Source: Saccharopolyspora sp. NFXS83 (GTDB lineage: Bacteria; Actinomycetota; Actinomycetes; Mycobacteriales; Pseudonocardiaceae). Taken from it: a stretch of DNA of 64,000 bases. The notes under the pieces are model-generated. The model had not been told where the DNA came from. It saw only the letters and a program-made list of their open reading frames with translations, and ran no database searches. The position numbers were made by a program, and so were the translations under genes. The first letter of the stretch is position 1; each line of letters begins with the position of its first letter. Where the stretch lies: contig NZ_JAPFGB010000019.1 of the NCBI RefSeq assembly GCF_026241095.1, forward strand, positions 1 through 64,000, read 5' to 3'. This document shows positions 25,012 to 42,716 of the stretch, piece after piece.

Positions 25012-26532
25012 ATGGAATGGAATTGGCCGACGGCCGAAGAACTCATGTCCGCTTTGCGCGCCGGTGAAGTGACCTCGGTGGAGCTGACCGACGAGGCGAT
25101 CACTCGCATCGAACGCGACGACGAGGCGATCAACGCGATCTGCGTGCCGGACTTCGACCGTGCGCGGGCCACCGCGCACCAGGCCGACCAGGCGCGCGCC
25201 CGCGGCGAGGACCGGCCACTGCTCGGCCTTCCCGTGACGGTCAAGGAGTGCTACGACATCGCCGGGCTGCCCACGACCTGGGGCATGCCGATGCACCGGG
25301 ACTTCGTGCCGGCCGAGGACGCGGTGCAGGTGTCGCGGCTCCGGGCCGCCGGCGCGGTCGTGCTCGGCAAGACCAACGTGCCCTTGGGGCTGCAGGATCT
25401 GCAGAGCTTCAACGACATCTACGGCACCACCCGCAACCCGTGGGATCACGACCGCACGCCGGGCGGCTCCTCCGGCGGGTCGGCGGCGGCCCTGGCGGCT
25501 GGATTCGGCGCGTTGTCCATCGGCTCCGACATCGCCGGTTCGCTGCGCACCCCCGCGCATTTCTGCGGTGTCCACGCGCACAAGCCGACGCTCGGGCTGG
25601 CGGCGAACCGCGGCATGGTCGCGCCGCAGGCACCGGCATTGCCCGTCGACCTCGACCTCGCCGTCGTCGGCCCGATGGCGCGCACCGCCCGCGACCTCAC
25701 GCTCCTGCTCGACGTCATGGCCGGACCGGACCCGTTGACGCACGGCGTGGCGCACGACCTGGCCCTGCCGCCCGCGCGCCACCAGCGGCTCGGCGACTTC
25801 CAGGTCCTGGTCCTCGACGAGCATCCGTTCATCCCGACCGGGTCCGCCGTGCGGGCCGGCGTGAACCGGGTGGCCGACGCGCTCACCGACGGCGGCGCCC
25901 GCGTCGAACGGCACAGCCCGCTGCTGCCCGACCTGGCCGAAGCCGCGACGCTCTACGCGCAGTTGCTGTTCTCGGGCTCCGTCGCGCATTTCCCCGTCGA
26001 CGCGGACGAGCAGCTGCGGACCCGCGCCGCCGGGCTGAGCGCGGACGACCAGAGCCTCGACGCGGCGCGGCTGCGCGGAATGGTGCTGAGCCACCGCGAC
26101 TGGATCGAGGCGAACAACCGTCGCGAGCTGCACCGCCACGGCTGGCGGCGGTTCTTCACCGAGTTCGACGCCGTGGTGTGCCCGATCACGCCGACTCCCG
26201 CGTTCCCGCACGACCACGCCCCCGATCTGCTGGAACGCCGGATCGACATCGACGGCGTCGAGCACCCGTACTTCGACCAGCTCGTCTGGGCCGGTCTGGC
26301 CACCATGCCCGGCCTGCCCGCCACCGCGATACCCGCGGGCCTGTCCTCCGAGGGCCTGCCGGTGGGAGTGCAGCTCATCGGCCCGATGTTCGAGGACCGC
26401 ACCCCGCTGCGGCTGGCCGAACTTCTCGAGCAGAGGATTGGTGGCTTCCAGGTTCCGGCCGCGCAGCGGCCCGGCACCCTCGCTGACAGGACGCAGACCC
26501 ACGACCATCCTGGCCTCAGAAGTCGAACATGA
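25012..26532 (+). CDS. Amidase (amidase-signature family)
   Basis: 506-residue amidase-signature enzyme with an intact Ser-cisSer-Lys triad: Lys78 in V-T-V-K-E, Ser153 in P-G-G-S-S-G-G-S, and Ser177 in D-I-A-G-S-L-R-T-P, with the same spacing as fatty acid amide hydrolase. It hydrolyses carboxamides; the substrate is not specified by sequence. There is no Shine-Dalgarno box before ATG 25012, but a TACGGT box lies 7 nt upstream (leaderless). Its last 17 bp overlap the 3' end of the convergent aldehyde dehydrogenase gene. Confidence 0.93.
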   Translation: MEWNWPTAEELMSALRAGEVTSVELTDEAITRIERDDEAINAICVPDFDRARATAHQADQARARGEDRPLLGLPVTVKECYDIAGLPTTWGMPMHRDFVPAEDAVQVSRLRAAGAVVLGKTNVPLGLQDLQSFNDIYGTTRNPWDHDRTPGGSSGGSAAALAAGFGALSIGSDIAGSLRTPAHFCGVHAHKPTLGLAANRGMVAPQAPALPVDLDLAVVGPMARTARDLTLLLDVMAGPDPLTHGVAHDLALPPARHQRLGDFQVLVLDEHPFIPTGSAVRAGVNRVADALTDGGARVERHSPLLPDLAEAATLYAQLLFSGSVAHFPVDADEQLRTRAAGLSADDQSLDAARLRGMVLSHRDWIEANNRRELHRHGWRRFFTEFDAVVCPITPTPAFPHDHAPDLLERRIDIDGVEHPYFDQLVWAGLATMPGLPATAIPAGLSSEGLPVGVQLIGPMFEDRTPLRLAELLEQRIGGFQVPAAQRPGTLADRTQTHDHPGLRSRT

Positions 26533-27991
26533 CGGTTTTGGTCTCCGTGTAGGCGTGCAGCGCGTCCGGTCCGTGCTCGCGGCCGATCCCGGACTCCTTG
26601 AAACCGCCGAACGGGGCCGTGCCGGGCGCCATCGCACCCCAGGTGTTCACCCAGACCGTGCCCGCGCGCAGCTCGGCGCTCACCCGGTGCGCGAGCGACA
26701 CGTCCCGGGTCCACACCGACGCGGCCAGGCCGTAGCGGGTGTCGTCGGCCAGCCGCACGGCCTCCGCGGTGTCGGTGAAGCCCAGCAGCGCCGCGACCGG
26801 GCCGAAGATCTCCTCCTGCGCCACGCGCATGTCGGTGCGCACGTCGTCCAGCAGCGTGGGCGCGACGAACAGGCCCGGCCGCTGCAGGCGGTGCCCGCCG
26901 GTGCTGATCGTGGCGCCCTCGGCGCGGGCGATGTCGAAGTAACCGGTGACCCGGTCCAGGTGCGCGCGGAAGGCCAGCGGCCCCAACGTCGTGGCCGGGT
27001 CGAACGGGTCTCCCGGCACGTACCGGGCCATCGCCGCGCGCAGCAGCTCGCCGAACCGTTCGCGCACGTCCCGGTGCACGAGGATGCGGGTACCGGCCAC
27101 GCAGCCCTGGCCCGTGCCCATGCAGAACGCGGCGGCGGCGCCGGTGGCGGCGGCGTCCAGATCGGCGTCCGGGAACACGATGAACGGCGACTTCCCACCC
27201 AGTTCCAGGCTGACCCGCTTGAGCGTCCCGGCCGAGGCGCGCAGCACGTGCTTGCCCACCGGGCCGGAACCGGTGAACGAGACCTTGTCCACGCCGGGGT
27301 GGCTGATCAACGCCTGCCCGGTGCCCTCGCCGAGGCCGGTGACCACGTTGACCACTCCGGCGGGCAGTTCGATGTCGGTGAGCAGCTGCGCCAGCCGCAG
27401 CGCCGAGAGCGAACCGTGCTCGGACGGCTTGAGCACCACGGTGTTGCCCGCCGCCAGCGCCGGAGCCAGCTTCCACGACGTCTGCAGCGCCGGACCGTTC
27501 CAGGCGATGATCGCCGCGACCACTCCGATCGGCTGGCGCAGCGTGTAGTGCAGCCGGCCGGGACCGGCCGGGGTGGTGTGCCCGGTCAGCTTGGTCGGCC
27601 AGCCAGCGTAGTGCCGGTAGACCTCCACCGCGTGCTCGACCATGCCGCGCGACAGCTCCAGCGGCGCGCCCATGTCCAAGGAGTCCAGCGCAGCGAGTTC
27701 CTCCCGGTGGGCCTCGACCACGTCGGCGATCCGCGACAGCACCTTCGCCCGGTGCTGCGGGGACACCGCGGCCCAGGAGCCGAACGCCCGGCGCCCCGCC
27801 CGCACCGCCTCGTCGACTTCGTCGGGGCGGGCGACGCCGAGCCGGGCGAGCACCTGTTCGGTGGCCGGGTCCACGGTCGAGAACGTCTCCGGGGAGCGTG
27901 GCCGCTGCAGGCGCCCGTCGATGAGGAAGCCGAGCGGGTCCTCGTCGAGCAGCGCGGGACGGGGACGGGTGGTGGACGTGTCGATGGACAA
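26516..27991 (-). CDS. NAD(P)-dependent aldehyde dehydrogenase
   Basis: 491-residue ALDH-superfamily enzyme. Visible motifs: W-N-G-P region, V-L-K-P-S-E, F-T-G-S-G-P-V-G, catalytic Glu in L-E-L-G-G-K-S-P, catalytic Cys in G-T-G-Q-G-C-V-A-G-T-R and E-E-I-F-G-P-V. The start is TTG 27991 with GGGAGG 6 nt upstream. It diverges from an MmyB-type regulator at 28124, which probably senses its substrate or product (inference). Confidence 0.95.
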   Translation of the reverse strand: MSIDTSTTRPRPALLDEDPLGFLIDGRLQRPRSPETFSTVDPATEQVLARLGVARPDEVDEAVRAGRRAFGSWAAVSPQHRAKVLSRIADVVEAHREELAALDSLDMGAPLELSRGMVEHAVEVYRHYAGWPTKLTGHTTPAGPGRLHYTLRQPIGVVAAIIAWNGPALQTSWKLAPALAAGNTVVLKPSEHGSLSALRLAQLLTDIELPAGVVNVVTGLGEGTGQALISHPGVDKVSFTGSGPVGKHVLRASAGTLKRVSLELGGKSPFIVFPDADLDAAATGAAAAFCMGTGQGCVAGTRILVHRDVRERFGELLRAAMARYVPGDPFDPATTLGPLAFRAHLDRVTGYFDIARAEGATISTGGHRLQRPGLFVAPTLLDDVRTDMRVAQEEIFGPVAALLGFTDTAEAVRLADDTRYGLAASVWTRDVSLAHRVSAELRAGTVWVNTWGAMAPGTAPFGGFKESGIGREHGPDALHAYTETKTVMFDF

Positions 27992-28123
27992 GGGGAACCT
28001 CCCGGAGGACGCGATCTCTGGTCGGTTCGAGCTTCACCCCGACCGGCCGGGCCCGGGGCGTTGCGCGATTCCCTGGGAATCGCAGTCCCACCCTGCGCGG
28101 CGCGGCTGCGGCAGGATGAGGGC

Positions 28124-29005
28124 ATGGCCAGCACACGCGCACAGCAGCTCGCCGAGTTCCTGCGCACCCGCCGCGGCCGGGTGCGCCCGGCGGATCTCGG
28201 CTTGGAACCCGGCAGCGGACGCAAGGTCACCGGACTGCGGCGCGAGGAAATGGCGATGCTGGCCGGGGTCAGCACGGATTACTACCAGCGCATCGAGCAG
28301 GGCAGGGACGTCCGGCCGTCCGATCAGGTCCTCGACGCGCTCGCCCGCGCCCTGAACCTGACCGAGGACGAGACCCGGCACCTGCACATGCTCGGCAGGG
28401 CCCTCCGACGCCCGGCCGCGTCACGACGCCGAACGCGCGAACACGTCCCGGACACGACCCGCCGGTTGCTGCACACCATGACCGGACCGGCCCTGGTGCT
28501 GGGCAGCCACCTCGACGTGCTGGCGTGGAACGCGCTGGCAGGAAGCCTCTTCGGCGGCCTGGACGCGGTCCCCGCCGGGGAACGCAACGTGCTGCGCGCG
28601 ATCTTCCTCAACCCCGACGCCCCGCAGGTGTGCCCCGACTGGGAAGCCAGCGCCATCGAGTACATCGGCATGTTGCGCGCCGCCGCGGCCACCGACCCCG
28701 ACCACCCGCGCCTGCGGGAACTGGTCGGCGAGCTGAGCGTGCGCGGCCCGCGGTTCCCGAAGTTGTGGGCCCGGCACGACGTGCGGGAGAAGACCCGCGG
28801 TCGCAAGGTGTTCCACCACCCCCAGGCGGGAGTGCTGACCCTCGACTGGGACGCCTACCCGCTGCCCGGCCGTCCCGGCCCCACCTTGATCGCCTACACC
28901 GCGGTCCCCGGTTCCGCCGACGACGAACGCCTCCGCGCACTCGCCAGCCTGCTCACCACCGAGCCCGCACCGGCCACGCCGCGCCAGGCGGCCACGCGGC
29001 TCTGA
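28124..29005 (+). CDS. MmyB-like HTH transcriptional regulator
   Basis: 293-residue paralogue of the regulator at 17116: XRE helix-turn-helix (T-G-L-R-R-E-E-M-A-M-L-A-G-V-S-T-D-Y-Y) followed by the MmyB-like ligand-binding domain (A-L-V-L-G-S-H-L-D-V-L-A-W-N-A-L-A). It is divergent from the aldehyde dehydrogenase, with 132 bp between starts. CAGGAT at 28112-28117 occupies the same place, 6 nt before ATG, as TAGGCT in the 17116 gene. Confidence 0.9.
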   Translation: MASTRAQQLAEFLRTRRGRVRPADLGLEPGSGRKVTGLRREEMAMLAGVSTDYYQRIEQGRDVRPSDQVLDALARALNLTEDETRHLHMLGRALRRPAASRRRTREHVPDTTRRLLHTMTGPALVLGSHLDVLAWNALAGSLFGGLDAVPAGERNVLRAIFLNPDAPQVCPDWEASAIEYIGMLRAAAATDPDHPRLRELVGELSVRGPRFPKLWARHDVREKTRGRKVFHHPQAGVLTLDWDAYPLPGRPGPTLIAYTAVPGSADDERLRALASLLTTEPAPATPRQAATRL

Positions 29006-29041
29006 GAGTTCGCGGCGCACCACCCGGCCGGGGCGAGCGGG

Positions 29042-30262
29042 TCACCGCTCGGCGTCAGGTGGAGTCGTCTCCGGGGCCTGCTGCGCACGGCCGCTTTCCG
29101 CTGAGGGCGGTTTCGGGGCATAACGCTCCAGGACGGAGCGCGCACGGTTGGCCGCGTCCTCCGCGTCGGGCACGAGGACCTCGGCCAGTTCGCCGTGCAG
29201 CCGCGCGCACCGCTCGCGGGCCGTGGTCGCGGTGGCGCGCTGGTCGGCGAGGTCGCGCGTCAGCACTTGGATCTGCTCGTGCAGCGGCGCGAGGGCGTCG
29301 GCGTAGGAGCGGGTGGCCTCGGTGAGCCGGTCGGTGAGCTCGCCGATGCGCTGGTCGGCCGCCGCCCGATCCGCCTGCACGCGCTGGGAGAACTCGTCGG
29401 CCTGCGCGCGCAGCCGCTGCCGGTGGTGCTCGTCGAGTTCCCGGCGCAGCTCCTGCTGGGCCTGCTCGTGCTCCCTGCGCAGGACGTCGACGCGGTCGAG
29501 CGCCGTGGCGCGCTCGCCGGCGAGGGTGTTGTGCAGTTCGGTGATGTGCTGCTGGGCGGCGGTGGCCTGCTCCAGCGCGGCTTGCCGGTCCGCGCCGGCG
29601 CGGGCGGCCTCGTCGCGCGCGGCGTCGCGATCCGTGAACGCCTGATCGCGTTCCTGGTCGGCTTGCGCCGCGCGGTCCACGGCCTCGGACCGTTCGGCGG
29701 TGGCCGCCTCGGCTCGCGCGTGGGCTTCCTCGGCGGTCGAGCGAGCCTCGTCGCGGTCGGCGACGGCCGTGCGAGCGGTGTCCTGCGCCTCGGTGCGCGC
29801 GGTCTCGGCGTCGTGGCGGGCGTCGAGCGCTCGGGCCAGCTCCGCGGTGGCGAGTTGTTCGAGACCGGCGATCTCCTCGTGGACCGGCGCGAGCGCGCCC
29901 TTGAGGTCGGCCAACCGGTCCCGGAGTCCGCCGAGGTCGACCTTGGTCATCGGCTGGTCCGGCCCGTAGACCTGCATCCAGATCTCGCGCTGCTCGTCGA
30001 GCATCGCGCACGTGATCGTCTTCGCGCCCCAGCTGCCGTACCGGTCGGAGTCGGCGGGGCAGTACGGGGTGGGCCGCCCGCCCTTGGACGGCACCGGGGC
30101 CAGCGGCTCCCCGCAGTAGGCGCAGTGAGCGTCCATTCCTTCGGCCAGCGCGCGCAGCGTCTGCTCCCGCCGCTGCGCCCTCGTTCCTCGCCGCACCGGC
30201 GCTTCCGGGTGCTCCTGGTCGCCTCCGCCCGTCTCCACCGCCACGTCTCCCGACTGCTCCAT
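29042..30262 (-). CDS. Zinc-finger plus long coiled-coil protein, unknown function
   Basis: About 406 residues from ATG 30262. An N-terminal Cys cluster (C-A-Y-C-G-E-P-L, later P-Y-C-P and T-C-A-M) precedes about 270 residues of nearly uninterrupted heptad-rich coiled coil (D-R-D-E-A-R-S-T-A-E-E-A-H-A-R and similar), ending in a short disordered tail. The layout, a putative DNA-contacting finger followed by a coiled coil, recalls KfrA-like partition/segregation proteins, but I do not recognise the family. AAGGAGAGG lies about 12-15 nt upstream. The upstream DNA is unusually AT-rich and contains GATATC-centred dyads. Confidence 0.7.
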   Translation of the reverse strand: MEQSGDVAVETGGGDQEHPEAPVRRGTRAQRREQTLRALAEGMDAHCAYCGEPLAPVPSKGGRPTPYCPADSDRYGSWGAKTITCAMLDEQREIWMQVYGPDQPMTKVDLGGLRDRLADLKGALAPVHEEIAGLEQLATAELARALDARHDAETARTEAQDTARTAVADRDEARSTAEEAHARAEAATAERSEAVDRAAQADQERDQAFTDRDAARDEAARAGADRQAALEQATAAQQHITELHNTLAGERATALDRVDVLRREHEQAQQELRRELDEHHRQRLRAQADEFSQRVQADRAAADQRIGELTDRLTEATRSYADALAPLHEQIQVLTRDLADQRATATTARERCARLHGELAEVLVPDAEDAANRARSVLERYAPKPPSAESGRAQQAPETTPPDAER

Positions 30263-30698
30263 CGCCCGCCGCGCCCCTCTCCTTCGATTTCTCTGCGAAA
30301 ACCCCACAACCCGAGATATCGGGTAACGAATCATAACATCAGGTTTGGGTTTCAAAACTAAAACCGGTCACCTGTGGGGACATGGTGATATCATATGGAT
30401 AAGCAGGATTATGGATATGGTGTGCTCGCGGGGTCGAGCAGCCGAATCGCGGCCTTGCAATGCGGCAAAACGGACATCGAGCGCAGGGGCGAGGGAGGTG
30501 CCTGGCGCTCGCGACTGCCCTGTCGTCTCGCGGGCGGCAGGGTGAAGGGCCGGAGGCAGCACCCGGAAGGCGAGTGGTTGAGACCGCGAGCACCGAGAAG
30601 CGCCATCAGGCGGGGAAGGGCGCCCCTGTAGAACGATCAAGCACACGGACCAATTAAGTCACGGTGACGAAAAGATTCAGGTCGTTCCGCGGAGTCGT
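30263..30698. other. 436-bp intergenic region with an AT-rich island
   Basis: Positions about 30300-30420 are much more AT-rich than the rest of the window. They contain CCGAGATATCGG (30311-30322) and TGATATCA (30386-30393). The remainder is ordinary GC-rich DNA. Short reading frames here (for example 30395-30631) have no family features and I do not call them genes. Confidence 0.55.
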
Positions 30699-31928
30699 TC
30701 AGGGCCTGCGGGTGCGGAAGGTGCGGCGCAGGTCGCCCACCCAGGCCTCGGGGTTCTCCCACGGGATGAAGTGACCGCCGTGGTCGTGGGCGGTGACGTT
30801 CACGTGGTTGAACCAGGCGGCCTGCGGGCCGTTCTCGAACGCCTGGACGCGCTCGGCGGTGGTGCGGATCCCGGGCGGGTTCTCGTAGGTGACGAAGGTG
30901 AGGCCGACCGGGGCCTGCACGACCGGGCTGCGGTCGTGCGCGGGGGTCCACGGGTGGCGGTTGGCGTTGGCGTAGTAGCGCATCGACGTGGCGATGGAGT
31001 TGGTCACCCAGTAGATCGTGGCGTGGGTGAGCAGGTCGTCCTTGCTGAACACGGACTCGACGTCGCCGCCGTTGTCGCTCCAGGAGTTCCAGCGCTCCAG
31101 CAGCCAGGCGAGCAGTCCGGCGGGCGAGTCGCTGAGCCCGTGGGCGAGGGTGGCGCCGTCGAGCACGTGCACGGCCAAGTGCGACGCCGAGCGGTGGTCC
31201 AGTTCGACGATGCGGGCGCGGACGTCGGCGGGCTGGTCGTCGGCCAGCGGCCGGTTGCGGGCGAAGTCCCAGGCCCGGGGGCCGGTGAAGAAGTCCAGCG
31301 GCAGCCCGGAGCCGATGTGGATGCCGTAGAGCTCGTCGGCGTACTTGTGGCCGAGCTGGCTGGAGATGATCCCGCCGATGTCGCAGCCCCCGGCGGCGTA
31401 CTTCTCGTACCCCAGGGTCTCGGTCATCAGCGCGTGCCAGAGGTCGGCGACCTTCCAGAAGTTGACGTCCGGGAACCCGGTCAGCGGGCCGGGGAATCCG
31501 AACCCCGGAAGCGAGGGCACGATGACGTCGAACGCGTCGGCGGGATCACCGCCGAACGCGGCCGGGTCGGCGAGCGGGTCGATCACCTTCGACCAGTGCC
31601 AGAACGTCCACGGCCAGCCGTGGGTGAGGATCAGCGGGATCGGGCGGGGGCCGCGCCCGGGTTTGCGCACGAAGTGCACGGCAACACCCGAGACGGTCAC
31701 TTCGTGGTGCTCGTAGGCGTTGATCGCGGCTTCGGCGGCGCGCCAGTCGTAGCGGTCCCGCCAGTACGCGACCAGGTCGCGCAGGTAGCCGGCCGGGACG
31801 CCGTAGGACCAGTCCTCGTTGTTGTCGTCCAGCGGCGACCGGGTCGCGCCGAGGCGGGCGCGCAGGTCGTCGAGGACCTCGTCGGGCACGTGGATCGGAG
31901 CGGATTCCAGGGCGGCGCGCCGGGGCAT
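30699..31928 (-). CDS. Epoxide hydrolase (EHN-domain type)
   Basis: 409-residue alpha/beta hydrolase with an N-terminal epoxide-hydrolase (EHN) domain: I-H-V-P-D-E-V-L-D-D-L-R-A-R-L and W-R-D-R-Y-D-W-R-A-A-E. The core shows T-H-G-W-P-W-T-F (oxyanion motif), nucleophile Asp in G-G-C-D-I-G-G, and the catalytic His in D-H-G-G-H-F-I-P-W-E. It hydrates epoxides to diols. ATG 31928 has GAGGA 8 nt upstream. It is divergent from the peptide locus at 32280; a link is possible but unproven. Confidence 0.9.
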   Translation of the reverse strand: MPRRAALESAPIHVPDEVLDDLRARLGATRSPLDDNNEDWSYGVPAGYLRDLVAYWRDRYDWRAAEAAINAYEHHEVTVSGVAVHFVRKPGRGPRPIPLILTHGWPWTFWHWSKVIDPLADPAAFGGDPADAFDVIVPSLPGFGFPGPLTGFPDVNFWKVADLWHALMTETLGYEKYAAGGCDIGGIISSQLGHKYADELYGIHIGSGLPLDFFTGPRAWDFARNRPLADDQPADVRARIVELDHRSASHLAVHVLDGATLAHGLSDSPAGLLAWLLERWNSWSDNGGDVESVFSKDDLLTHATIYWVTNSIATSMRYYANANRHPWTPAHDRSPVVQAPVGLTFVTYENPPGIRTTAERVQAFENGPQAAWFNHVNVTAHDHGGHFIPWENPEAWVGDLRRTFRTRRP

Positions 31929-32279
31929 GGCGTGGTCCTCAACGGAACGGAGTGGGACGAGGTGACGTCCCCAAATCCTTCCTCGGCGGCACGCCCGCCG
32001 CCACGGGTTCACCGGGGCGCCGGTCAGATCGTGATGTGGTCGGCGGCGCCCGGTGCTCCGAACGCCCGGCTACGTTGCCCTTTCAGCGGCACCCACGTCC
32101 TGCGCGCGAGTTCGGTGGAGGCGACCGGGCGTCGCGGCCGTCCGGCCCCAGTGAGGCCAAGATCATTTAAGCGGACATTTCGGTCAAGATCTGCTAGCTT
32201 TGCGATCGAGCCTGTCCGATATGTCCATCGTGATGGACGCTGGACCGGCGCCTTCCCCCCAGATAGCCGGAGGTGTGGC
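31929..32279. other. 351-bp divergent regulatory region upstream of the peptide gene
   Basis: No coding sequence recognised. It contains the candidate promoter of the peptide gene (CGGACA 32172-32177, 17-bp spacer, TAGCTT 32195-32200) and a dyad GTCCAT/ATGGAC at 32223-32228 and 32233-32238 inside the expected leader. Confidence 0.55.
32172..32238 (+). promoter_or_regulatory. Candidate promoter and leader dyad of the peptide gene
   Basis: -35-like CGGACA (32172-32177), 17-bp spacer, -10-like TAGCTT (32195-32200). Transcription would start near 32207. The dyad GTCCAT-cgtg-ATGGAC (32223-32238) then falls in the 5' leader and could be an operator or RNA stem. Confidence 0.45.
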
Positions 32280-32408
32280 ATGAAGAAGCTGTCCGAGAAG
32301 ATCGCCAGTGACACCGTGTGGGCCAAGTGGGTCGCGGCGAACTCGCAGCCATCGGCCAAGCAGGGATGCATCTCCCGCAAGGAAGGCTGCATTTCCAGGG
32401 CGAGCTGA
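32280..32408 (+). CDS. Candidate RiPP precursor peptide with tandem GCISR repeat
   Basis: 42-residue peptide. Residues 1-28 form a charged, probably helical leader-like part (starts M-K-K-L-S-E-K-I, with two Trp at 14 and 17). Residues 29-42 hold two copies of Gly-Cys-Ile-Ser-Arg separated by Lys-Glu and end in Ala-Ser. A strong GGAGG (32269-32273) sits 6 nt before ATG. A perfect 12-bp hairpin follows 13 nt after the stop, and an adenylate-forming enzyme gene comes next on the same strand. Small size, Cys/Ser repeats at the C-terminus and an intercistronic attenuator fit a modified-peptide precursor (inference). I know no described family with this sequence. It could instead be a peptide scaffold or an unmodified signal. 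Confidence 0.65.
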   Translation: MKKLSEKIASDTVWAKWVAANSQPSAKQGCISRKEGCISRAS

Positions 32409-32421
32409 CCCGCGTCGCTCC

Positions 32422-32451
32422 GGAGCGGCAGGCGACTCGGCCTGCCGCTCC
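32422..32451 (+). terminator. Perfect 12-bp hairpin between peptide and enzyme genes (attenuator)
   Basis: GGAGCGGCAGGC at 32422-32433 pairs exactly with 32440-32451 around the loop GACTCG. It lies 13 nt after the peptide stop and about 33 nt before the enzyme start, with no strong U-tract. This is the usual place for a partial terminator or 3' stabiliser that makes a precursor more abundant than its enzymes. Confidence 0.75.
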
Positions 32452-32484
32452 ACCTTCGTTCGTCCACTTCCGATTGGACTCCGG

Positions 32485-33711
32485 GTGCAGCCGACCGACG
32501 AGATGCTCGATCACGTCCGTGACGTCCCGCTCTACCGGGAATCGCTGGCCGCCGGGGAATTTCCCGTGCTGGAGAAAGACATCATCGCCCGGGATTTCCC
32601 GGACAACTTCATGACGCCGGCCCTGGCCGAGGCGCTCGAGACCGGCGAGGCCGAGTTCGTGCTCTCCACCGGTACCAACCACGCGCGGATGCAGCTGATC
32701 CGTCCGCCCTACTTCCTGCTCAAGTCCTACTACCGCCTCTGGTCCGAGCACCCGGCGATCAAGCACACCTGGCATGCCGGCTGCCCGCGCGTATCGCTGA
32801 CCACCGTGCTGGCCACCGAGCACGTCGCACGGGTCAACGCCACCAGGCGCGGTGAGCCGCCCGCCGAGCACCCGCCGCTGTCGGATCGCCGGCTCGACGA
32901 GCGCACCGTCTACGTCAACCAGCAGCTGGATCCGGCGCTGTGGACCCGCGCCGACGTCGAGCGGATGGTGGCAGAGATCGAGCAGACCCGCGCCGACCAC
33001 CCAGCAGGCCGGTACCACCTCGACTGTTCCGGCTACCACCTCGCGCACCTCGTGACCAAAGTGCTGGAATTCGGCTTGACGCTGCCGGCGCCGTCGAGCA
33101 TCGTGCACGCCTACGAATACACACCGGACAACGTCGTCCGCTTCCTGCGCGGCCATTTCGACTGCCCGATCGTCGACCTGTTCGGCAGCACCGAGCTGGG
33201 CTACCTGTACTACAGCGCCGGTGAGGACACCTATCGGCCGTACCTGGATCAGATGTCGGTGGAACTGATTCCGGTGGAGCCGGGAAGCACGCTGTACGCG
33301 CTGATCGTCTCCAGCGTTCGCAACGAGTGGATGCCACTGATCCGCTACCGCTCCGGCGACCTCGCCCGCACCGCGGACGGTTCCGCCGACCCGGCGCGGA
33401 TCTCCCGCTTCTGCGGCAGGGAGAAGGAACTGATCCGTGTCGGCTCCGCGTTGCTGTGCCACGGCGACCTCGACCGCTGGATCGGACGGACGGCGCCGGA
33501 GGTGTTCGTCTACCGGCTGCGCCGCGGCGCAGGGCAGACGGCCGAGCTCGAGTACACGACCTTCGATCGGCGGCCGACCGACACCACCGCTTTGGTCGCG
33601 GCGCTCGCCGAGCACCTGGAGCTGGCGGTGCAGCCGGTGCACCGCGAGCACATCCCGATCGGCACCTCCGGCAAGTACGCCTGGCTGCATCCCGAATCCC
33701 GCGTCCGCTGA
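32485..33711 (+). CDS. PaaK/F390-synthetase-like adenylate-forming enzyme
   Basis: About 408 residues of the phenylacetate-CoA ligase/coenzyme F390 synthetase/LuxE branch of ANL enzymes. Visible motifs: F-V-L-S-T-G-T-N-H (the T-S-G-T-T-G-type nucleotide loop), V-D-L-F-G-S-T-E-L-G (aromatic-x-S-T-E), L-I-R-Y-R-S-G-D-L-A (ribose-binding Asp), G-R-E-K-E-L-I-R-V-G (hinge) and G-T-S-G-K-Y near the C-terminus. It would activate a carboxylate as an acyl-AMP. Immediately after the peptide gene, it could adenylate the peptide C-terminus or attach an acid to it (inference). The start is uncertain: GTG 32485 or ATG 32503, both with weak ribosome sites. Confidence 0.8.
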   Translation: MQPTDEMLDHVRDVPLYRESLAAGEFPVLEKDIIARDFPDNFMTPALAEALETGEAEFVLSTGTNHARMQLIRPPYFLLKSYYRLWSEHPAIKHTWHAGCPRVSLTTVLATEHVARVNATRRGEPPAEHPPLSDRRLDERTVYVNQQLDPALWTRADVERMVAEIEQTRADHPAGRYHLDCSGYHLAHLVTKVLEFGLTLPAPSSIVHAYEYTPDNVVRFLRGHFDCPIVDLFGSTELGYLYYSAGEDTYRPYLDQMSVELIPVEPGSTLYALIVSSVRNEWMPLIRYRSGDLARTADGSADPARISRFCGREKELIRVGSALLCHGDLDRWIGRTAPEVFVYRLRRGAGQTAELEYTTFDRRPTDTTALVAALAEHLELAVQPVHREHIPIGTSGKYAWLHPESRVR

Positions 33712-33736
33712 GCACCACACACGTCAGGAGCCCACC

Positions 33737-34231
33737 GTGCCCGTCACTCCCGCCGAACTGCGGTCCCTGCTGGGCGAGGACCTGCACAGCGAGGCAGTCG
33801 CGCACTTCGCCGCCAAGACCGGCCATCCGACCGAGTACGTGCGGCGCCAAGTCCTGGAATGCCTGCGCTACCTGTACCTGGTCTCCTCCCACCAGGACCA
33901 GCTGGCAGGCACGTTCTTGCCGGTGGAGCAGGAGATCGACGAGGTGTGGCACTACCTCATCCTGCAGACTCGGGAGTACCGGGAAATCTGCGCCCGGTTG
34001 CCCGGCGGGTTCTTCATCGAGCACCGCAGCATCAGCTACACCGAGTACGCCGAGGAGGCTCCGCGCGAGCGGACCGCGGCGGAGGCGCTGCGGTGGATTC
34101 CGCTCTACCAGGCGGCTTTCGGTCCTTACGACGAGGACGCGCTGCCGCACTGGACGATGGTCCGCTTCCTGCACGAGGAGTTGAACATGTCGATGGCTAC
34201 CATCGCCGAGCTGGACATGGCCTCGATCTGA
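33737..34231 (+). CDS. Glycine-rich-domain-like (GRDP-like) protein
   Basis: 164-residue soluble protein. Its centre reads E-Q-E-I-D-E-V-W-H-Y-L-I-L-Q-T-R-E-Y with a Cys after (residues about 65-85), matching the E-x-D-x-x-W-H-x-x-x-L-x-T-x-x-Y-x-x-x-C signature of the glycine-rich domain-containing protein-like family. A second His follows in F-F-I-E-H-R. The pattern could bind metal. No function is established for bacterial members as far as I know. GTG 33737 has AGGAG 6 nt upstream, 25 bp after the ligase, so the peptide, ligase and this gene form one operon. Confidence 0.68.
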   Translation: MPVTPAELRSLLGEDLHSEAVAHFAAKTGHPTEYVRRQVLECLRYLYLVSSHQDQLAGTFLPVEQEIDEVWHYLILQTREYREICARLPGGFFIEHRSISYTEYAEEAPRERTAAEALRWIPLYQAAFGPYDEDALPHWTMVRFLHEELNMSMATIAELDMASI

Positions 34232-34246
34232 GCCCGAGCCTCGGGC
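34232..34246. terminator. Short hairpin between converging operons
   Basis: GCCCGA (34232-34237) pairs with TCGGGC (34241-34246) around a 3-nt loop. It fills most of the gap between the GRDP-like gene (stop 34231) and the MFS gene on the other strand (34251). Confidence 0.4.
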
Positions 34247-34250
34247 GGGG

Positions 34251-35636
34251 TCAGTAGCGCCCGGTCACCGCACGGCGCCCGGTCACCGCCACCGCGATCC
34301 CGACCGCGAGCTGCACCGCCAGCACGGCGGCGAAGGCGGCGGCGTGACCGGTGCCGACGAGTCCGGTGTAGACCGATCCGAGCGCGGCGACGCCGACCGC
34401 CATCGAGCCCTGTTGCGCGGTCACCAGCACTCCGCCGCCGACCCCGGCGTACTTGGCGGGCACCGCACCCAGCACGGAGATCTGCGACGACCCGACCACC
34501 AGTGCCTGGCCCGCTCCGATCAGCACCATTCCCGGCAGCACCCACCACACCGCGCCGCCGAGCAGCAGCACGCCCAGCAGCCACACCACACCCGCGGCCT
34601 GCACCCACGCCCCGGCGCCCAGCACGCCGTCCCCGAGTTTCGTGCGCAGCCCCGGCACGGCGAACGAGCCGGCCAGGAACGCCGCCGACATCGGTGCGAC
34701 GGCCAGCCCGGCCAGCGCCGGGTCGAGCCCGAACCCGTTCTGCAGGGTCAGCGGTAGTGCGAACAGGTACCCGGCCCAGCCCGCCAAGAACGGCGCCACG
34801 AGCATCAGCCCGCCGCGCACCCGTCGTTCGGTCAGCACCGACGGTGGTAACAGCGGTACCCGGCCCTGCGCGACGACCTGGTTTTCCGTGCGCCACAACG
34901 CGACCGCCGCGACCGGTACCAGGGCCAGGAGTGCGACGGTCCACCACGGCCAGCCCAGCAACGGCCCCCGGTTGAGCGCGAGCAGCAGCAAGACGATCGT
35001 GGTCGTCAACAACGCGGTGCCGCGCAGGTCGACGCCGACCGGATGCGGCGCCCGGGTGTCGGGCACCAGCAGCAGGGCGAGCACCGTCGCCGCGATCCCG
35101 AGCGGCAGGTTCACCAGGAAGATCAGCCGCCACGAGGTGCCCCACAGATCGGCCTGCACGAGCGCTCCGCCCAGCAGCAGCCCGAGGATCGCGGACAATC
35201 CGCTGATCGCGGCGTAGTGGCTCATCGCCCGCGGCCGGCGTTCGGCGTCCACGGCGGCCTGGATCGTGCCCAGTGCCTGCGGCGGGATCAGCGCCGCTGC
35301 CGCGCCCTGCAGGACGCGCGCGGCCACCAGCCATTCGCCCGACCCGGCCAGCGCGCACAGCAGCGAGGCGAAGGTGAACACCACCAGCCCGGCGACGAGA
35401 ACGCGCTTGCGCCCGTAGGAGTCACCGAGGCGCCCGCCCAGCACCAGCAAGACGGTAAACGCCGATCCGTACCCGGCCACCACCAGCTCCAGGTCGGCGC
35501 CGGAGGTGCCGAGGTCCGCCGCGATGGTGGGCAGCGCGACGTTGACGATGAAGGAATCCATCATCGGCAGCAGCGCGGCCAGTAGCACCACCGCGATCCC
35601 GGTCGAGCCCAGCTTCGGCCGCTCCACGGTGATCAT
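34251..35636 (-). CDS. MFS drug exporter, DHA2 (EmrB/QacA) type
   Basis: 461-residue transporter with about 14 predicted membrane segments. It shows the DHA2 hallmarks: P-M-M-D-S-F-I-V-N-V-A-L-P-T-I in TM1, G-R-L-G-D-S-Y-G-R-K-R as motif A, and R-V-L-Q-G-A-A-A-A-L-I-P in motif B. It is a proton-driven exporter of small molecules. ATG 35636 overlaps the upstream flavin monooxygenase stop by 4 bp (ATGA), so the two are cotranslated. Tail-to-tail with the peptide operon, it is a candidate exporter for that product (inference). Confidence 0.92.
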   Translation of the reverse strand: MITVERPKLGSTGIAVVLLAALLPMMDSFIVNVALPTIAADLGTSGADLELVVAGYGSAFTVLLVLGGRLGDSYGRKRVLVAGLVVFTFASLLCALAGSGEWLVAARVLQGAAAALIPPQALGTIQAAVDAERRPRAMSHYAAISGLSAILGLLLGGALVQADLWGTSWRLIFLVNLPLGIAATVLALLLVPDTRAPHPVGVDLRGTALLTTTIVLLLLALNRGPLLGWPWWTVALLALVPVAAVALWRTENQVVAQGRVPLLPPSVLTERRVRGGLMLVAPFLAGWAGYLFALPLTLQNGFGLDPALAGLAVAPMSAAFLAGSFAVPGLRTKLGDGVLGAGAWVQAAGVVWLLGVLLLGGAVWWVLPGMVLIGAGQALVVGSSQISVLGAVPAKYAGVGGGVLVTAQQGSMAVGVAALGSVYTGLVGTGHAAAFAAVLAVQLAVGIAVAVTGRRAVTGRY

Positions 35637-37228
35637 GCGGTGCGGAACCCCCGGTAGTCCTCGGCCGCGACCGCGTCGCAGATCCGCCGGTAAGCGTCCA
35701 GCCCGCCGGCGAACGGCGCGAACACCCGCGCCTTGCCTTCGATGTTGGCGCCCAGGTAGTAGGAATCGGTGCGCGGATAGAGCGTGCCGCTTGCCAGCTC
35801 GGCGAGCCGGGCCGCCCACTCGTCCTGGAAGGGTTCCAGCGCCTCGACCTCGGTGAGCTCGTGCTCCCGGGCGTGCACGAGCAGGTCGCGCACCCATTCG
35901 ACGTGATGCTCGATCGCGCGCAGCACGTTGGACAGGACCATGGTGCTTCCCGGGCCGGTGAGGGTGAACAGGTTCGGGAACCCGGCCATCGCCAGACCGA
36001 GATAGCTGCGCGGACCGTCCCGCCAGACCTCGGTGAGCGCCCGGCCGTCGCGGCCGGTGATGCCCAGGCGGGTCAGCGCCCCGGTGAAGGCGTCGAATCC
36101 GGTGGCCAGCACGAGCACGTCCAGCTCGTGATCGCCGCCGATGGTGCGGACCCCCGTGCGGGTCAACTCCTGGATCGGATCGGCGCGCAGATCGACGAGC
36201 CTGACGTGCGGGAGGTTGAACGTCTCGTAGTAACCGTCATCGACGCACAGTCGCTTGGTGCCGATCGGATAGCCGGTCGGGGTGAGCGCCCGCGCGGTGG
36301 CCGGGTCGTGTACCTGCTCGCGCACTCGGTCGCGGAAGTAGTCCGCCAGCACGGCGTTCGCCCTCAGGTCACGACCGGTGTCGGTGAACGTCGCGACGAT
36401 GTGCGTGCCACCGCGAGCCCACCTCGCGTCGAGTTCGACGGCACGCTCGGCCGGGTCGGTCTCGAGGGCGGCCTTGCCGGTACCGATCACGGCGTGACCG
36501 AACCGGGTGGTGCGTGCGTCGTGCACCTGCTGCTCGTAGCGGGCGACCGCGGCGTTGCGCTCCTGCTGGGTCAGCGGGCGGTTGCGGGCGGGGACGCTGA
36601 AGTTGGCCGTGCGCTGGAACACCACCAGCTCTGCGGCTTCCTTGGCCAGCTCGGGCACCACCTGGATCCCGGAGGATCCGGTGCCGATCACCCCGACGCG
36701 ACGCCCTGCCAGCTCGACCGGCTCGGCAGGCCACCGGGAGGTGCGCAGCACCGTTCCACCGAAGCGCTCCCAGCCCGGGATGGGCGGCGTGTGCGCCGCG
36801 GACATGCAGCCCACGGCCGTGACCACGAACCGCGCGCGGACGCGTTCACCGGTGTCGGTGGTCAGGTTCCACGCGCCGTCCTCGAAGGCCGCGCCGGTGA
36901 CCGTGGTGCCGAAGGTGATGTGCGGCAACAATCCGCGCCGGTCGGCGAAATGCTCGGCGTAGCGCAGGATTTCCGGCTGGGCGGCGAACCGCTCGGACCA
37001 CTGCCAGGTCTCGTGCAGCTCTGGGTCGTGCAGGTAGGCGTAGTCCACGCTCTCCACGTCGCACCGGGCACCGGGATAGCGGTTCCAGAACCAGGTGCCG
37101 CCGACTCCGATGGCCGATTCGTAGGCATGGCAGGAGAACTCGTATCTGCGGAGCTGGTCGAGCATGTGCAGTCCGGCGAAGCCGGCCCCGATCACCGCGA
37201 TGTCCAACACGGCGTCGAGATTACACAT
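35633..37228 (-). CDS. Flavin-containing (Baeyer-Villiger-like) monooxygenase
   Basis: 531-residue two-dinucleotide-fold flavoprotein. FAD motif I-G-A-G-F-A-G-L near the N-terminus, N-R-Y-P-G-A-R-C-D typical of Baeyer-Villiger monooxygenases, NADP motif V-I-G-T-G-S-S-G-I-Q-V, and L-V-L-A-T-G-F-D. The class fingerprint F-x-G-x-x-x-H-x-x-x-W reads F-G-G-T-V-L-R-T-S-R-W, so the usual His is Arg and the reaction may differ. ATG 37228 is used; GTG 37210 is an alternative, 7 nt after a TAATCT -10-like box. It is cotranscribed with the MFS exporter. Confidence 0.9.
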   Translation of the reverse strand: MCNLDAVLDIAVIGAGFAGLHMLDQLRRYEFSCHAYESAIGVGGTWFWNRYPGARCDVESVDYAYLHDPELHETWQWSERFAAQPEILRYAEHFADRRGLLPHITFGTTVTGAAFEDGAWNLTTDTGERVRARFVVTAVGCMSAAHTPPIPGWERFGGTVLRTSRWPAEPVELAGRRVGVIGTGSSGIQVVPELAKEAAELVVFQRTANFSVPARNRPLTQQERNAAVARYEQQVHDARTTRFGHAVIGTGKAALETDPAERAVELDARWARGGTHIVATFTDTGRDLRANAVLADYFRDRVREQVHDPATARALTPTGYPIGTKRLCVDDGYYETFNLPHVRLVDLRADPIQELTRTGVRTIGGDHELDVLVLATGFDAFTGALTRLGITGRDGRALTEVWRDGPRSYLGLAMAGFPNLFTLTGPGSTMVLSNVLRAIEHHVEWVRDLLVHAREHELTEVEALEPFQDEWAARLAELASGTLYPRTDSYYLGANIEGKARVFAPFAGGLDAYRRICDAVAAEDYRGFRTA

Positions 37229-37278
37229 AACAGACAATCCGCCTGCACCAGTCAGTGGTGATCCAGATGATGTTCCGG

Positions 37279-38127
37279 TCAGATCGTGATGTGGTCGGCG
37301 AGTTGTTCGGCGGCGGTGCGCGGTGCGCGGCCGAGTAACTCGGCCAGCATCGGAGCGCTCCCCGCGAAGTGTCCGCCGCGGGCGGCGCGGAACAGGCTGA
37401 GCGTCATCCGCGCGAGGAATTCCGGAGTGCCGTCCGCGATTCGCCGCGCGACCCAGTCTTCGTCGCCGACGACGACGCGTTCGATGGTGCGCCCGGTGAG
37501 TTCGGAGGCGATCCCCGCGAAGTCGTCGAGGGTGGCGGCCGGTGCGGACAGCGTGACCGGGCCGTCGAAAGTGCGCTCGCCTGCGAGGATGACCGCTGCG
37601 GCCTCGGCCAGGTCGGCGCGATCGGTCCACGGGATGGGACCGTCCGCCGGTTCGGCGATCACCCCGGTCCGCTGCCAGGGACCGAGCAGCAGTCCGAGGT
37701 CGCCGAAGAAGCCGTAGCGCAGCGCGGTCCAGGCGACTCCGGAGTCGGCGAGGAGCGACTCGGTGGCGGCATGCGCGGCGGCCGGGGGATACGGGCCGCC
37801 GACGGCGCCTTGCTGGCTGGTGTAGAGGATCCGCCGGGCGCCGGCGTCGACCGCGGCGTCGATCGCGGTGCGGTGCTGGCCGACCACGTCCGCCGCCGGA
37901 TCGTTGGAGCTCACCAGGAGCACCTGCTCGGCACCGGCGAAGGAGTCGCGCAGCGCGACCGGGTCGTCGTAGGAGCCCTGCCGCACCCGCACGCCGCGGT
38001 CGGCGAAGTGCTGCGCCTTGGCGGCGTCGCGCGCGCTGACGGCGACCCGATCGGCCGGTACCAGCTGGAGGAGGTGCTCGACGGTCGCTCCGTTGAGAGC
38101 GCCGGTGGCTCCCGTGACGACGATCAT
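37279..38127 (-). CDS. NmrA-like NAD(P)-binding protein
   Basis: 282-residue atypical SDR of the NmrA/QOR2-like group: I-V-V-T-G-A-T-G-A-L-N-G-A-T at the N-terminus, V-L-L-V-S-S-N-D, and R-I-L-Y-T-S-Q-Q-G. It lacks the Y-x-x-x-K pair and probably acts as a redox sensor or quinone reductase-type enzyme. It diverges from a TetR regulator at 38276, and both promoters lie between two TetR-like operators. ATG 38127 follows GAGG by 8 nt. Confidence 0.88.
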   Translation of the reverse strand: MIVVTGATGALNGATVEHLLQLVPADRVAVSARDAAKAQHFADRGVRVRQGSYDDPVALRDSFAGAEQVLLVSSNDPAADVVGQHRTAIDAAVDAGARRILYTSQQGAVGGPYPPAAAHAATESLLADSGVAWTALRYGFFGDLGLLLGPWQRTGVIAEPADGPIPWTDRADLAEAAAVILAGERTFDGPVTLSAPAATLDDFAGIASELTGRTIERVVVGDEDWVARRIADGTPEFLARMTLSLFRAARGGHFAGSAPMLAELLGRAPRTAAEQLADHITI

Positions 38128-38179
38128 GCTCGTGGCCTCGCTTCTCCTGTGCCCGCACCCGTCGCGGTGCGGATTAAGT

Positions 38180-38240
38180 TGACCTGACGGGTCAGTTTTG
38201 AGTGCGTCGCCGACGGTAGGTAAACTGACCGGGCAAGTCA
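38180..38240. promoter_or_regulatory. Two TetR-type operators over a divergent promoter
   Basis: Two related inverted repeats: TGACC-N5-GGTCA (38180-38194) and TGACC-N5-AGTCA (38226-38240). Between them on the plus strand are -35 TTGAGT (38198-38203), 17-bp spacer and -10 TAAACT (38221-38226), serving the TetR gene. The second operator overlaps the -10 and start site. The first lies on the NmrA-gene side. This is classic TetR autoregulation plus control of the divergent gene. Confidence 0.75.
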
Positions 38241-38275
38241 ACTTGCTGGACGAGATGCGGAGGAGGGGTGCGCAC

Positions 38276-38857
38276 ATGACCGGCGGGACGCCCCGGCTTC
38301 GCGCCGACGCCCAGCGCAACGCGGAGCAGATCCGCCGCGCCGCGATCAACGCCTTCCATGGCCGGGGGCTGACCGTGCGGCTGGAAGAGGTCGCCGAGGC
38401 GGCGGGCGTGAGCAAGGCGACGATCTTCAACCGGTTCGGCGGTCGGATCGGCCTCATCGAAGCCGTCATCGAAGAGGTCGTCGCGAACGAGCTGCACGCG
38501 ATCATCGACCGCACCCGCGGCATCGACGACATCGCGGAGCGGATCGCGCACTACGTCACCGCGCTCCGCGACCTCCAGTACCGCCAGCCCGCCGCCAACG
38601 ACGTCATGCTGCAGGTGTTTCCGCACTCGCGGCAGCTCATGGGGATCTGCCGAGCGGCCGGTGAGATGAACGACGAACTGATCAAGGCGGGCCGCAACGC
38701 CGGTGCGCTGCGGCCGGAGTTCACGGCCGACGATCTGCAGGCGCTCATCCACGACAACGCGCTCGCCCTCAAGCACGGCACCCGCCCGCACCGCCACGAC
38801 TACGACCGCCGCACCCGCTACCTCCTCGACGGCATCCGCGGGCACCCCGGCGGATGA
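38276..38857 (+). CDS. TetR-family transcriptional regulator
   Basis: 193-residue repressor. The N-terminal HTH is visible: R-R-A-A-I-N-A-F-H-G-R-G-L-T-V-R-L-E-E-V-A-E-A-A-G-V split over helices, then V-S-K-A-T-I-F-N-R-F-G-G-R. The C-terminal part is helical and ligand-binding. ATG 38276 has GGAGGAGGGG about 8 nt upstream; the longer frame from 38198 would run through the operators and is rejected. Divergent from the NmrA gene, it likely represses both. Confidence 0.9.
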   Translation: MTGGTPRLRADAQRNAEQIRRAAINAFHGRGLTVRLEEVAEAAGVSKATIFNRFGGRIGLIEAVIEEVVANELHAIIDRTRGIDDIAERIAHYVTALRDLQYRQPAANDVMLQVFPHSRQLMGICRAAGEMNDELIKAGRNAGALRPEFTADDLQALIHDNALALKHGTRPHRHDYDRRTRYLLDGIRGHPGG

Positions 38858-38916
38858 CGCGGTGGCGCGGCAGGGCCCGTCGCGGGCAGAGCAGTTCAGA
38901 CGAGGAGCGGGAATTC

Positions 38917-40098
38917 ATGACCGAGGTGGCCGTGCGCGAGCAGGCCGGCAAGTCCGGCCGGGAGCGCTTCGCGGAGTTCCTGCGGATCTACGCGTCGTTG
39001 AACACCCGCGTCGCCTACGCCACCGATCTGGGCATCCCGCTGGACTGGGTCCCCGGCTACCGCGCGCCGGAACCGGGGCGCCGCCGGGGCCGGGCGCGGC
39101 GCACCGAGCCGACCGGGCTGGAATGGCTCAACTGGTGCGTGCGCAACGACTTCGCCTCGTTCGCCGACGTGCGCGTCGAGCACGTCGAGCGGTGGTTGGA
39201 GGAACTCGCGCGCGCCGGGTACCGGGACGCGACGCGGGCCCGGATGCTCTCGGCGGTCTCGGCGTTCTACCAGAAGTACCTGCTGCGCGAAGGCCTCGCC
39301 GCGCACAACCCGGCGGCGCTGGTGGACCGCTCCGCCCAGCACCTCAACCGGGCGGGCGGCACGCCGTCGCAGACGGCGATGTGGTCGTTCGAGGCGTGCC
39401 GGGCGCTGCTGCTGGCCGCGCACCTGCTGGCCGGGGAGAGCCGCAACGGGCTGCGCGACCGCGCCATGGTCGAGGTGCTGATCGGCACCGGGGTGCGCGC
39501 GGAGGAACTGGTCGGGGTGAACCTCGACGACTACCTCCGGCCCACGCCGGGTGGTTCGGCGGCGTTGCGGGTGCACGGCAAGGGCGCCAAAGACCGCCGC
39601 GTGGCGCTGGCCGCGCCGGTCGCCGACGCCGTCGAGGCGTACCTGGCGGTGCGCGGGGAGACCGCCGTTCCGGCGTTGCCGGGCCAGGTCGGGCACCGGC
39701 CTCCCCGGCCGCTGCTGATCACCGGGACCGGGCGGCGGGTGCACGTCTCCCACGTGCAGGCGGTGCTGCGGCGGCTGTGCGCGACGTTCGCCCCCGCGCC
39801 CGACGCGCCCGCGCCGCGTTCCCGGTGGTTGCGGGAGCTGCTGGCGGGGGAGCAGGCCGCGCTCATCGCCACCCACCTGGGCCCGTTGCGGGACACGATC
39901 CACCCGCATTCGGCGCGGCACTCCTACGCCACGCACGCGATCACCCGCGGCGCTGAACCCCGCCAGGTGCAGCACGACCTCGGCCACGCCGCGCTGTCGA
40001 CGACCGAGGGCTACCTGCACGACGCCGACGGTCTCGCGCAGTCGGCGGCGCACGAGCTGTCGCCCGCGCTGCACCGCGGCTGGCTGCCCGCCCGGTGA
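38917..40098 (+). CDS. Tyrosine recombinase/integrase (XerC/D-like)
   Basis: 393-residue site-specific recombinase. It has an N-terminal SAM-like DNA-binding domain (E-W-L-N-W-C-V-R-N-D-F-A-S-F) and a catalytic domain with the full set: Arg in G-V-R-A-E-E-L, Lys in G-K-G-A-K-D-R-R, H-x-x-R in H-P-H-S-A-R-H-S-Y, His in L-G-H-A-A-L and Tyr in E-G-Y-L-H. ATG 38917 follows GAGGAG by about 9 nt; an in-frame ATG at 38854 overlaps the TetR stop but adds a non-conserved Arg-rich stretch. No att site, tRNA, transposase or phage gene is visible nearby, so it is an orphan. Confidence 0.9.
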   Translation: MTEVAVREQAGKSGRERFAEFLRIYASLNTRVAYATDLGIPLDWVPGYRAPEPGRRRGRARRTEPTGLEWLNWCVRNDFASFADVRVEHVERWLEELARAGYRDATRARMLSAVSAFYQKYLLREGLAAHNPAALVDRSAQHLNRAGGTPSQTAMWSFEACRALLLAAHLLAGESRNGLRDRAMVEVLIGTGVRAEELVGVNLDDYLRPTPGGSAALRVHGKGAKDRRVALAAPVADAVEAYLAVRGETAVPALPGQVGHRPPRPLLITGTGRRVHVSHVQAVLRRLCATFAPAPDAPAPRSRWLRELLAGEQAALIATHLGPLRDTIHPHSARHSYATHAITRGAEPRQVQHDLGHAALSTTEGYLHDADGLAQSAAHELSPALHRGWLPAR

Positions 40099-40107
40099 CC
40101 TGGCCGG

Positions 40108-42716
<2,609 letters not shown>

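Follow-up and report, generated by a model that had tools for sequence, protein, structure and literature searches.

A 42-residue gene in Saccharopolyspora sp. NFXS83 is, on the evidence of its homologues, real and more than a chance reading frame: a related peptide is encoded upstream of the same ligase in 83 of 83 loci, and a profile of the peptide matches 39 of 343 genomes of one genus. In the window (the whole stretch of 64,000 nucleotides that was analysed) the peptide gene is followed by genes for a PaaK-like adenylate-forming ligase and a 164-residue helical protein, which bears out the gene order of the original prediction (Table 1). The peptide is almost certainly tied in function to these two proteins and is probably a substrate that is modified. 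Most likely it is either a multicore precursor or a ribosome-made thiol carrier.

Table 1. Coordinates of the repeat-peptide cassette and its surroundings in the window
Feature	Position	Strand	Evidence
Opposed 14-base motif copies, possible operator	32172..32226 (32173-32186, 32213-32226)	+	weak
Ribosome binding site GGAGG	32269..32273	+	sequence; 6 bases 5' of ATG
42-aa peptide gene, two GCISR units	32280..32408	+	homologues at 83/83 loci; protein-level constraint
Hairpin of 12 bp (loop 6) separating the peptide gene from the ligase gene	32422..32451	+	stem test across 83 loci
PaaK-like adenylate-forming ligase	32485..33711	+	conserved motifs; structure model
164-aa helical protein, invariant His72, Cys85, His96, His138	33737..34231	+	alignment, model, 82/83 loci
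DHA2-type MFS exporter	34251..35636	-	Pfam MFS_1; best NCBIfam match efflux_EmrB, below cut-off
Baeyer-Villiger monooxygenase, stop overlaps MFS start	35633..37228	-	phenylacetone monooxygenase 1w4x E 5e-164; PF00743 over cut-off

The repeat peptide and its gene

The gene opens with an ATG at 32280 and closes with a stop at 32406-32408, and its ribosome binding site is in place as predicted; a GGAGG within 18 bases of the start is present in 77 of the 83 homologous genes. The product is MKKLSEKIASDTVWAKWVAANSQPSAKQGCISRKEGCISRAS, in which Cys30 and Cys37 sit inside two GCISR units, again as first read. Members of the family are 38-69 residues long and have a conserved N-terminal segment followed by two to six Gly-Cys-Ile/Val-Ser units. 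In each of the 83 peptides, a pair of Trp residues three apart, with Asn-Ser or Asn-Ala after them, precedes the units. When units containing Gly-Cys are counted, 61 peptides have three, 15 have two, six have four, and one, from Sorangium, has six GCIS units with Lys-Lys spacers. The 244 units comprise 230 GCIS, 13 GCVS and one GCIC, whose second Cys is the sole cysteine beyond one per unit; none lies outside the units in any peptide. The C-terminal end is exactly GC[I/V]S in 73 of the 83 peptides, while the window peptide and nine others run on past their final unit or finish with a decayed one. Single decayed units, reported separately from these counts, are GYIS in locus L083 and GRAS in L099. 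NCBIfam models run against four homologous peptides gave one chance match and nothing else.

The units are conserved as amino acids and vary as DNA. Ser is encoded by AGN in 144 cases and by TCN in 99, codon choice also varies for Gly, Ile and Cys, and unit DNA differs within the peptide in 80 of 83 cases. Across 314 non-independent pairs (pairs of unequal length, below 75% identity or with fewer than five differences were excluded), pN/pS has a median of 0.285 and a maximum of 1.02. An alignment of 30 peptides indicates that the N-terminal segment is also conserved as protein. Selection on the units acts at the protein and not the DNA level. A lack of such constraint in synonymous and nonsynonymous changes had been named beforehand as grounds for rejecting the prediction, and the constraint is there.

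All 83 loci thus have a small precursor gene whose product joins a conserved N-terminal part to a separate C-terminal core. This upholds the predicted leader-like segment and repeated Cys-containing C-terminal part, as well as the linkage and coding constraint expected of a RiPP precursor; GCISR, the repeat originally named, turns out to be the local form of a broader GC[I/V]S unit. The expectation of a variable core failed. With a core that is nearly invariant, a carrier, a fixed product or a constant site of modification is a better match than a diversifying RiPP core.

Several possible signals flank the gene. Upstream, two opposed copies of a 14-base motif, with one and zero mismatches to a motif itself derived from this same site, are a possible operator of the peptide gene. 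This is a weak suggestion from sequence: allowing up to two mismatches, the window holds four matches against 2.7 expected, which is no excess, and CGGACA...TGTCCG half-sites lie close to the peptide gene in three of 11 Pseudonocardiaceae loci (the window, L056 and L057). A TetR-family regulator (window 38198-38857, plus strand) is a candidate for acting on these copies. A promoter-like TTGAC...TTTAC pair, in a pattern written post hoc, occurs upstream in 65 of 83 loci against two of 4,150 shuffles and is absent from the window locus itself. On the other side of the gene, a stem of at least 9 bp lies 3' of the peptide stop in 40 of 83 loci, compared with 9.5% of mononucleotide shuffles. A stem in this position is a common arrangement for RiPP precursor genes. 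Scanning the window for Rfam families and for tRNA genes gave no hits.

The ligase, the 164-residue protein and their neighbours

The ligase (start taken by us as GTG) has conserved STGT, FGSTE, RYRSGD, GREKE and SGKY motifs and a Lys397 that is invariant in 36 sequences; the ANL fold, adenylation motifs and C-terminal Lys of a PaaK-like ANL ligase were all found. Its structure model (pLDDT 88.5; Foldseek was also run) is closest to PaaK1 (Z 24.3, rmsd 3.4, 347 aligned), followed by BT_0428 (Z 24.0), ClxA (22.4), 2-hydroxyisobutyryl-CoA ligase (21.0), AjiA1 (20.8) and NatL2 (20.2), all at 11-18% identity. By the model, the fold is nearest to acid:CoA ligases and to the ester-forming NatL2 and ClxA. 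In profile searches, the window ligase has no Pfam match and scores 40 bits where NF045666 requires 300, no curated cut-off is passed, and the BagE/FevW model gives weak matches in 15 of 36 family members.

The 164-residue protein lies downstream of the ligase in 82 of 83 loci, the exception being a contig end, and in Streptomyces sp. WAC 01529 the two are fused in a single frame (L127, 10001-11704). Among 33 sequences, 47 columns are invariant, including the three His and one Cys listed in Table 1. The model is helical and confident. In a fold search no PDB entry reached E 0.001, and none of 128 re-examined chains rose above Z 2.9, a result that does not show a new fold. The label 'GRDP-like' had been attached to this protein; a motif-level resemblance stands, and at the level of the family it falls away, with PF07173 matched by one of 33 members at E = 0.19 and by none over the Pfam cut-off. 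A search of 26 genomes with the PF07173 profile found no match, and the control genomes were likewise blank, so this search carries no evidential weight.

Of 199 genomes, 27 have a strong relative of the 164-residue protein (E 1e-78 or better), and each of these 27 also has the ligase. A further 28 of the 199 have weak matches only, so the domain lives outside the cassette too. Distant relatives elsewhere in Streptomyces genomes have a Cys-rich C-terminal tail in five of six loci (L185, L186, L187, L189 and L190, with no such frame picked in L188), for example CNPPACCGDGGGC. These tails suggest, at the level of sequence, a wider link between the domain and Cys peptides.

Beyond the three genes, an MFS exporter gene of one of two types is found downstream in 62 of 83 loci, and the 21 loci with no MFS match include some short contigs. 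A Baeyer-Villiger monooxygenase (in the window, start taken by us as ATG 37228) is present in eight of 83 loci, seven from Pseudonocardiaceae and the one from Sorangium. In the window, the exporter and this flavin monooxygenase converge on the peptide, ligase and 164-residue protein genes. A Pfam scan of 14 window proteins (25012-42713) detected no enzyme of known RiPP classes (lanthipeptide synthetase, YcaO, radical SAM, ATP-grasp and others) and no PEARL (LanB-like) enzyme, and no protease gene recurs among the identified neighbours. Further upstream (window 25012-30355), an amidase adjoins an aldehyde dehydrogenase, followed by a 437-residue frame with no Pfam match and long Ala/Glu/Arg-rich, coiled-coil-like stretches.

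Linkage and distribution of the cassette

The peptide and the ligase were traced by separate searches. Searched against 100 relatives, including the source genome, the peptide found four clear homologues besides itself (E 1.8e-11 to 5.2e-8), and the rest of the hits (E 0.006 to 1) resemble chance matches. For the ligase, 390 Pseudonocardiaceae genomes contain 11 clear orthologues, its own genome included (E 7e-169 or better), and all 11 have the peptide upstream and the 164-residue protein downstream (genome G024 being the copy named L060). Three further ligase matches in these genomes are weak (28-33% identity), and no GC[I/V]S string lies within 11-12 kb of them. No ligase orthologue was found in five congeners, and the ligase had no match among plasmid records.

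A scan of 84,980 species genomes by ligase alignment confirmed 123 relatives, of which 80 were kept and the other 43 stand outside the counts; it was keyed to two conserved ligase stretches, and relatives without both would escape it. Together with the window and two further family loci, these make up the 83 loci. All were chosen through the ligase, and all 83 have a homologous peptide upstream of it. The absence of such a peptide beside orthologous ligases had been set beforehand as a result that would count against the prediction. The holders belong to Pseudonocardiaceae, Streptomyces, two Burkholderiaceae and one Sorangium.

Searches made independently with the two profiles agree with this linkage. 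In 343 genomes of one genus, Streptomyces by inference (G749 is locus L114 and G1048 is L110, both from Streptomyces), the ligase profile matches 39 genomes and the peptide profile also 39 (E 4e-28 to 2e-19), with 38 in common. The linkage of a precursor to a candidate modifying enzyme that is expected of a RiPP is thus seen in 83 of 83 loci and in 38 of 39 genomes. The genome with a peptide and no ligase match (G797) has a contig that stops 30 bases past the peptide; the one with a ligase and no peptide match (G1014) has just a remnant matching profile positions 307-408, and the 10 kb read there contain no GC[I/V]S string. In a draw of 296 genomes from the phylum, the sole holder was the window's own genome, so the distribution of the cassette is patchy.

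In a tree of the ligases, Sorangium groups with Pseudonocardiaceae and the two Burkholderiaceae form one branch (L113 was left out, as its ligase frame, as read, breaks after 40 residues). Transfer of the cassette between phyla is likely from this sequence tree and is not proved, since the first split has a support of 95/89 and several rows there are long. A tyrosine recombinase of the phage integrase family (window 38854-40098, plus strand) lies about 5 kb from the cassette. With this recombinase nearby and five congeners that lack the cassette, arrival on a mobile element may have occurred.

Possible roles of the repeat peptide

Given a fixed repeated Cys unit, a conserved segment and a carboxylate-activating enzyme, the units are suggested to be acceptor sites of the ligase. 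The ribosome-made peptide would be the substrate of its own ligase, with the N-terminal segment as recognition leader. The ligase would adenylate a small carboxylic acid, by its fold perhaps an aromatic one, and load it on the thiol of the Cys in every GC[I/V]S unit; the Ser two positions further along would be an alternative or second acceptor. That the acid is aromatic is a weak guess, since 2-hydroxyisobutyryl-CoA ligase, which acts on an aliphatic acid, is about as near in structure as ClxA, AjiA1 and NatL2. The 164-residue protein may then act on or hold the loaded unit, perhaps with a metal bound through its invariant His and Cys. Modified units, or a small molecule built on them, would be released and leave through the MFS pump, and in the window's clade the Baeyer-Villiger monooxygenase would oxidise the product. 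Loading followed by a step of the 164-residue protein is drawn by analogy. NatL2 is reported to form an ester from an adenylated aromatic acid and a hydroxyl, after which a zinc enzyme acts (PMC7204872), and an indolic acid is reported to be attached to Cys or Ser of thiopeptide precursors for nosiheptide and nocathiacin (PMC12871812). As an overall explanation, adenylation of a small acid and its loading on the Cys (or Ser) of each unit has about an even chance. We are likewise evenly divided on acylation at Cys or Ser as the modification. The family itself is well supported; acylation, acceptor residue, acid, metal, release and export are what we infer.

In the closest competitor the peptide would be a carrier only, with several thiol sites that can be used again, comparable to an acyl carrier protein free of pantetheine, and would leave no part of itself in the product. 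The near-invariance of the unit over three phyla speaks for it, as do the transfer of acyl groups to the CoA thiol by enzymes of the same fold (PaaK) and the usual neighbour, an MFS pump of small-molecule type. We hold it to be unlikely if quite tenable; two to six copies, Lys-containing spacers and an exact GC[I/V]S end in 73 of 83 peptides look more like cores that are cut out, and no thioesterase was identified in the cassette. A bolder proposal, that the Gly-Cys-Ile-Ser units take the place of the pantetheine on carrier proteins or CoA, with a small molecule assembled on plain cysteines and then released, we put forward as a rather doubtful speculation. The peptide may instead be a binding partner or cofactor-like subunit of the ligase or the 164-residue protein, for example sharing a metal, and no substrate at all. 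Strict linkage would be expected in that case too, and conserved Cys and His occur in both the peptide and the 164-residue protein; the two to six units and the decayed ones in L083 and L099 suit a repeated reaction site over a fixed subunit and leave this role improbable. The product of the ligase could also be a CoA ester or a free ester, in which case the peptide would be only a regulator or partner.

Two other explanations turn on the end of the peptide and on its gene. The exact GC[I/V]S terminus of most family members would suit a ligase for which the acid to be activated is the peptide's own C-terminus, with a thiolactone or a C-terminal conjugate forming at the last unit, yet the window peptide and nine others continue past that unit or have a decayed one at the end, and inner repeats would require prior cutting. 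We give this a slight chance, since the window peptide extends beyond its last unit. A leader-peptide attenuator, in which a hairpin would couple the sensing of charged tRNA by the small gene to control of the ligase genes, would account for the position of the peptide gene as first in the operon, for the hairpin after its stop in the window and for the stems of at least 9 bp seen elsewhere. The hairpin is real in many loci, but by the strict test it is absent in 43 of 83, Ser codons alternate between AGN and TCN, those for Gly, Ile and Cys differ as well, and conservation of the N-terminal segment is at the level of protein. This codon switching, with the constraint on the protein, makes attenuation very improbable.

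Among known systems, NatL2/NatAM (nataxazole), ClxA, AjiA1 and BagE/FevW share the fold predicted for the cassette ligase, and the nataxazole system also has a second small-molecule-handling protein after the ligase step. Ligases of the NatL2, ClxA and AjiA1 type have 15-18% identity to the cassette ligase, and their substrates are free aromatic acids; we know of no precursor peptide in the NatL2, ClxA, AjiA1 or BagE/FevW systems. Nosiheptide and nocathiacin resemble the proposed loading in that an aromatic acid is placed on Cys (thioester) or Ser (ester) of a ribosomal core. They are thiopeptides with many other enzymes, whereas the candidates for modification here are the ligase and the 164-residue protein, plus the monooxygenase in eight of 83 loci. 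The carrier peptides of PEARLs (3-thiaglutamate and ammosamide type) are ribosomal platforms for small molecules like the proposed carrier; PEARLs use aminoacyl-tRNA at the peptide C-terminus, where the cassette has an ANL ligase and Cys units repeated inside the peptide. Multicore RiPP precursors, such as those of cyanobactins and dikaritins, have a leader and then tandem short cores with spacers, as does the repeat peptide. The cassette differs from them in its nearly invariant core, and none of their enzymes was found among the genes scanned. A text search of open-licence papers gave nothing fitting the motif, the peptide or the pairing of such a ligase with a RiPP, in line with the original view that no described class has this sequence or partner set; the main text of the 2020 decRiPPter paper (PMC7794033) contains none of the terms 'CoA ligase', 'adenylat' and 'acyl'. 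Among known kinds, RiPP precursors and carrier peptides come closest to the cassette, which has a new enzyme set.

The three-gene cassette, present in 39 of the 343 sampled genomes from a single genus (by inference Streptomyces) and in other soil bacteria, pairs a repeat peptide with an acid-activating ligase. If the loading is true, ligase-driven acylation of a repeated Cys unit would be an added core step for ribosomal peptide pathways; if the carrier reading is true, three phyla would have a further way of holding acyl groups in biosynthesis. The GC[I/V]S repeat beside the ligase offers a simple probe for more members and their products. The cassette points to an unstudied route in which a small molecule would be made or carried on a ribosome-made peptide.
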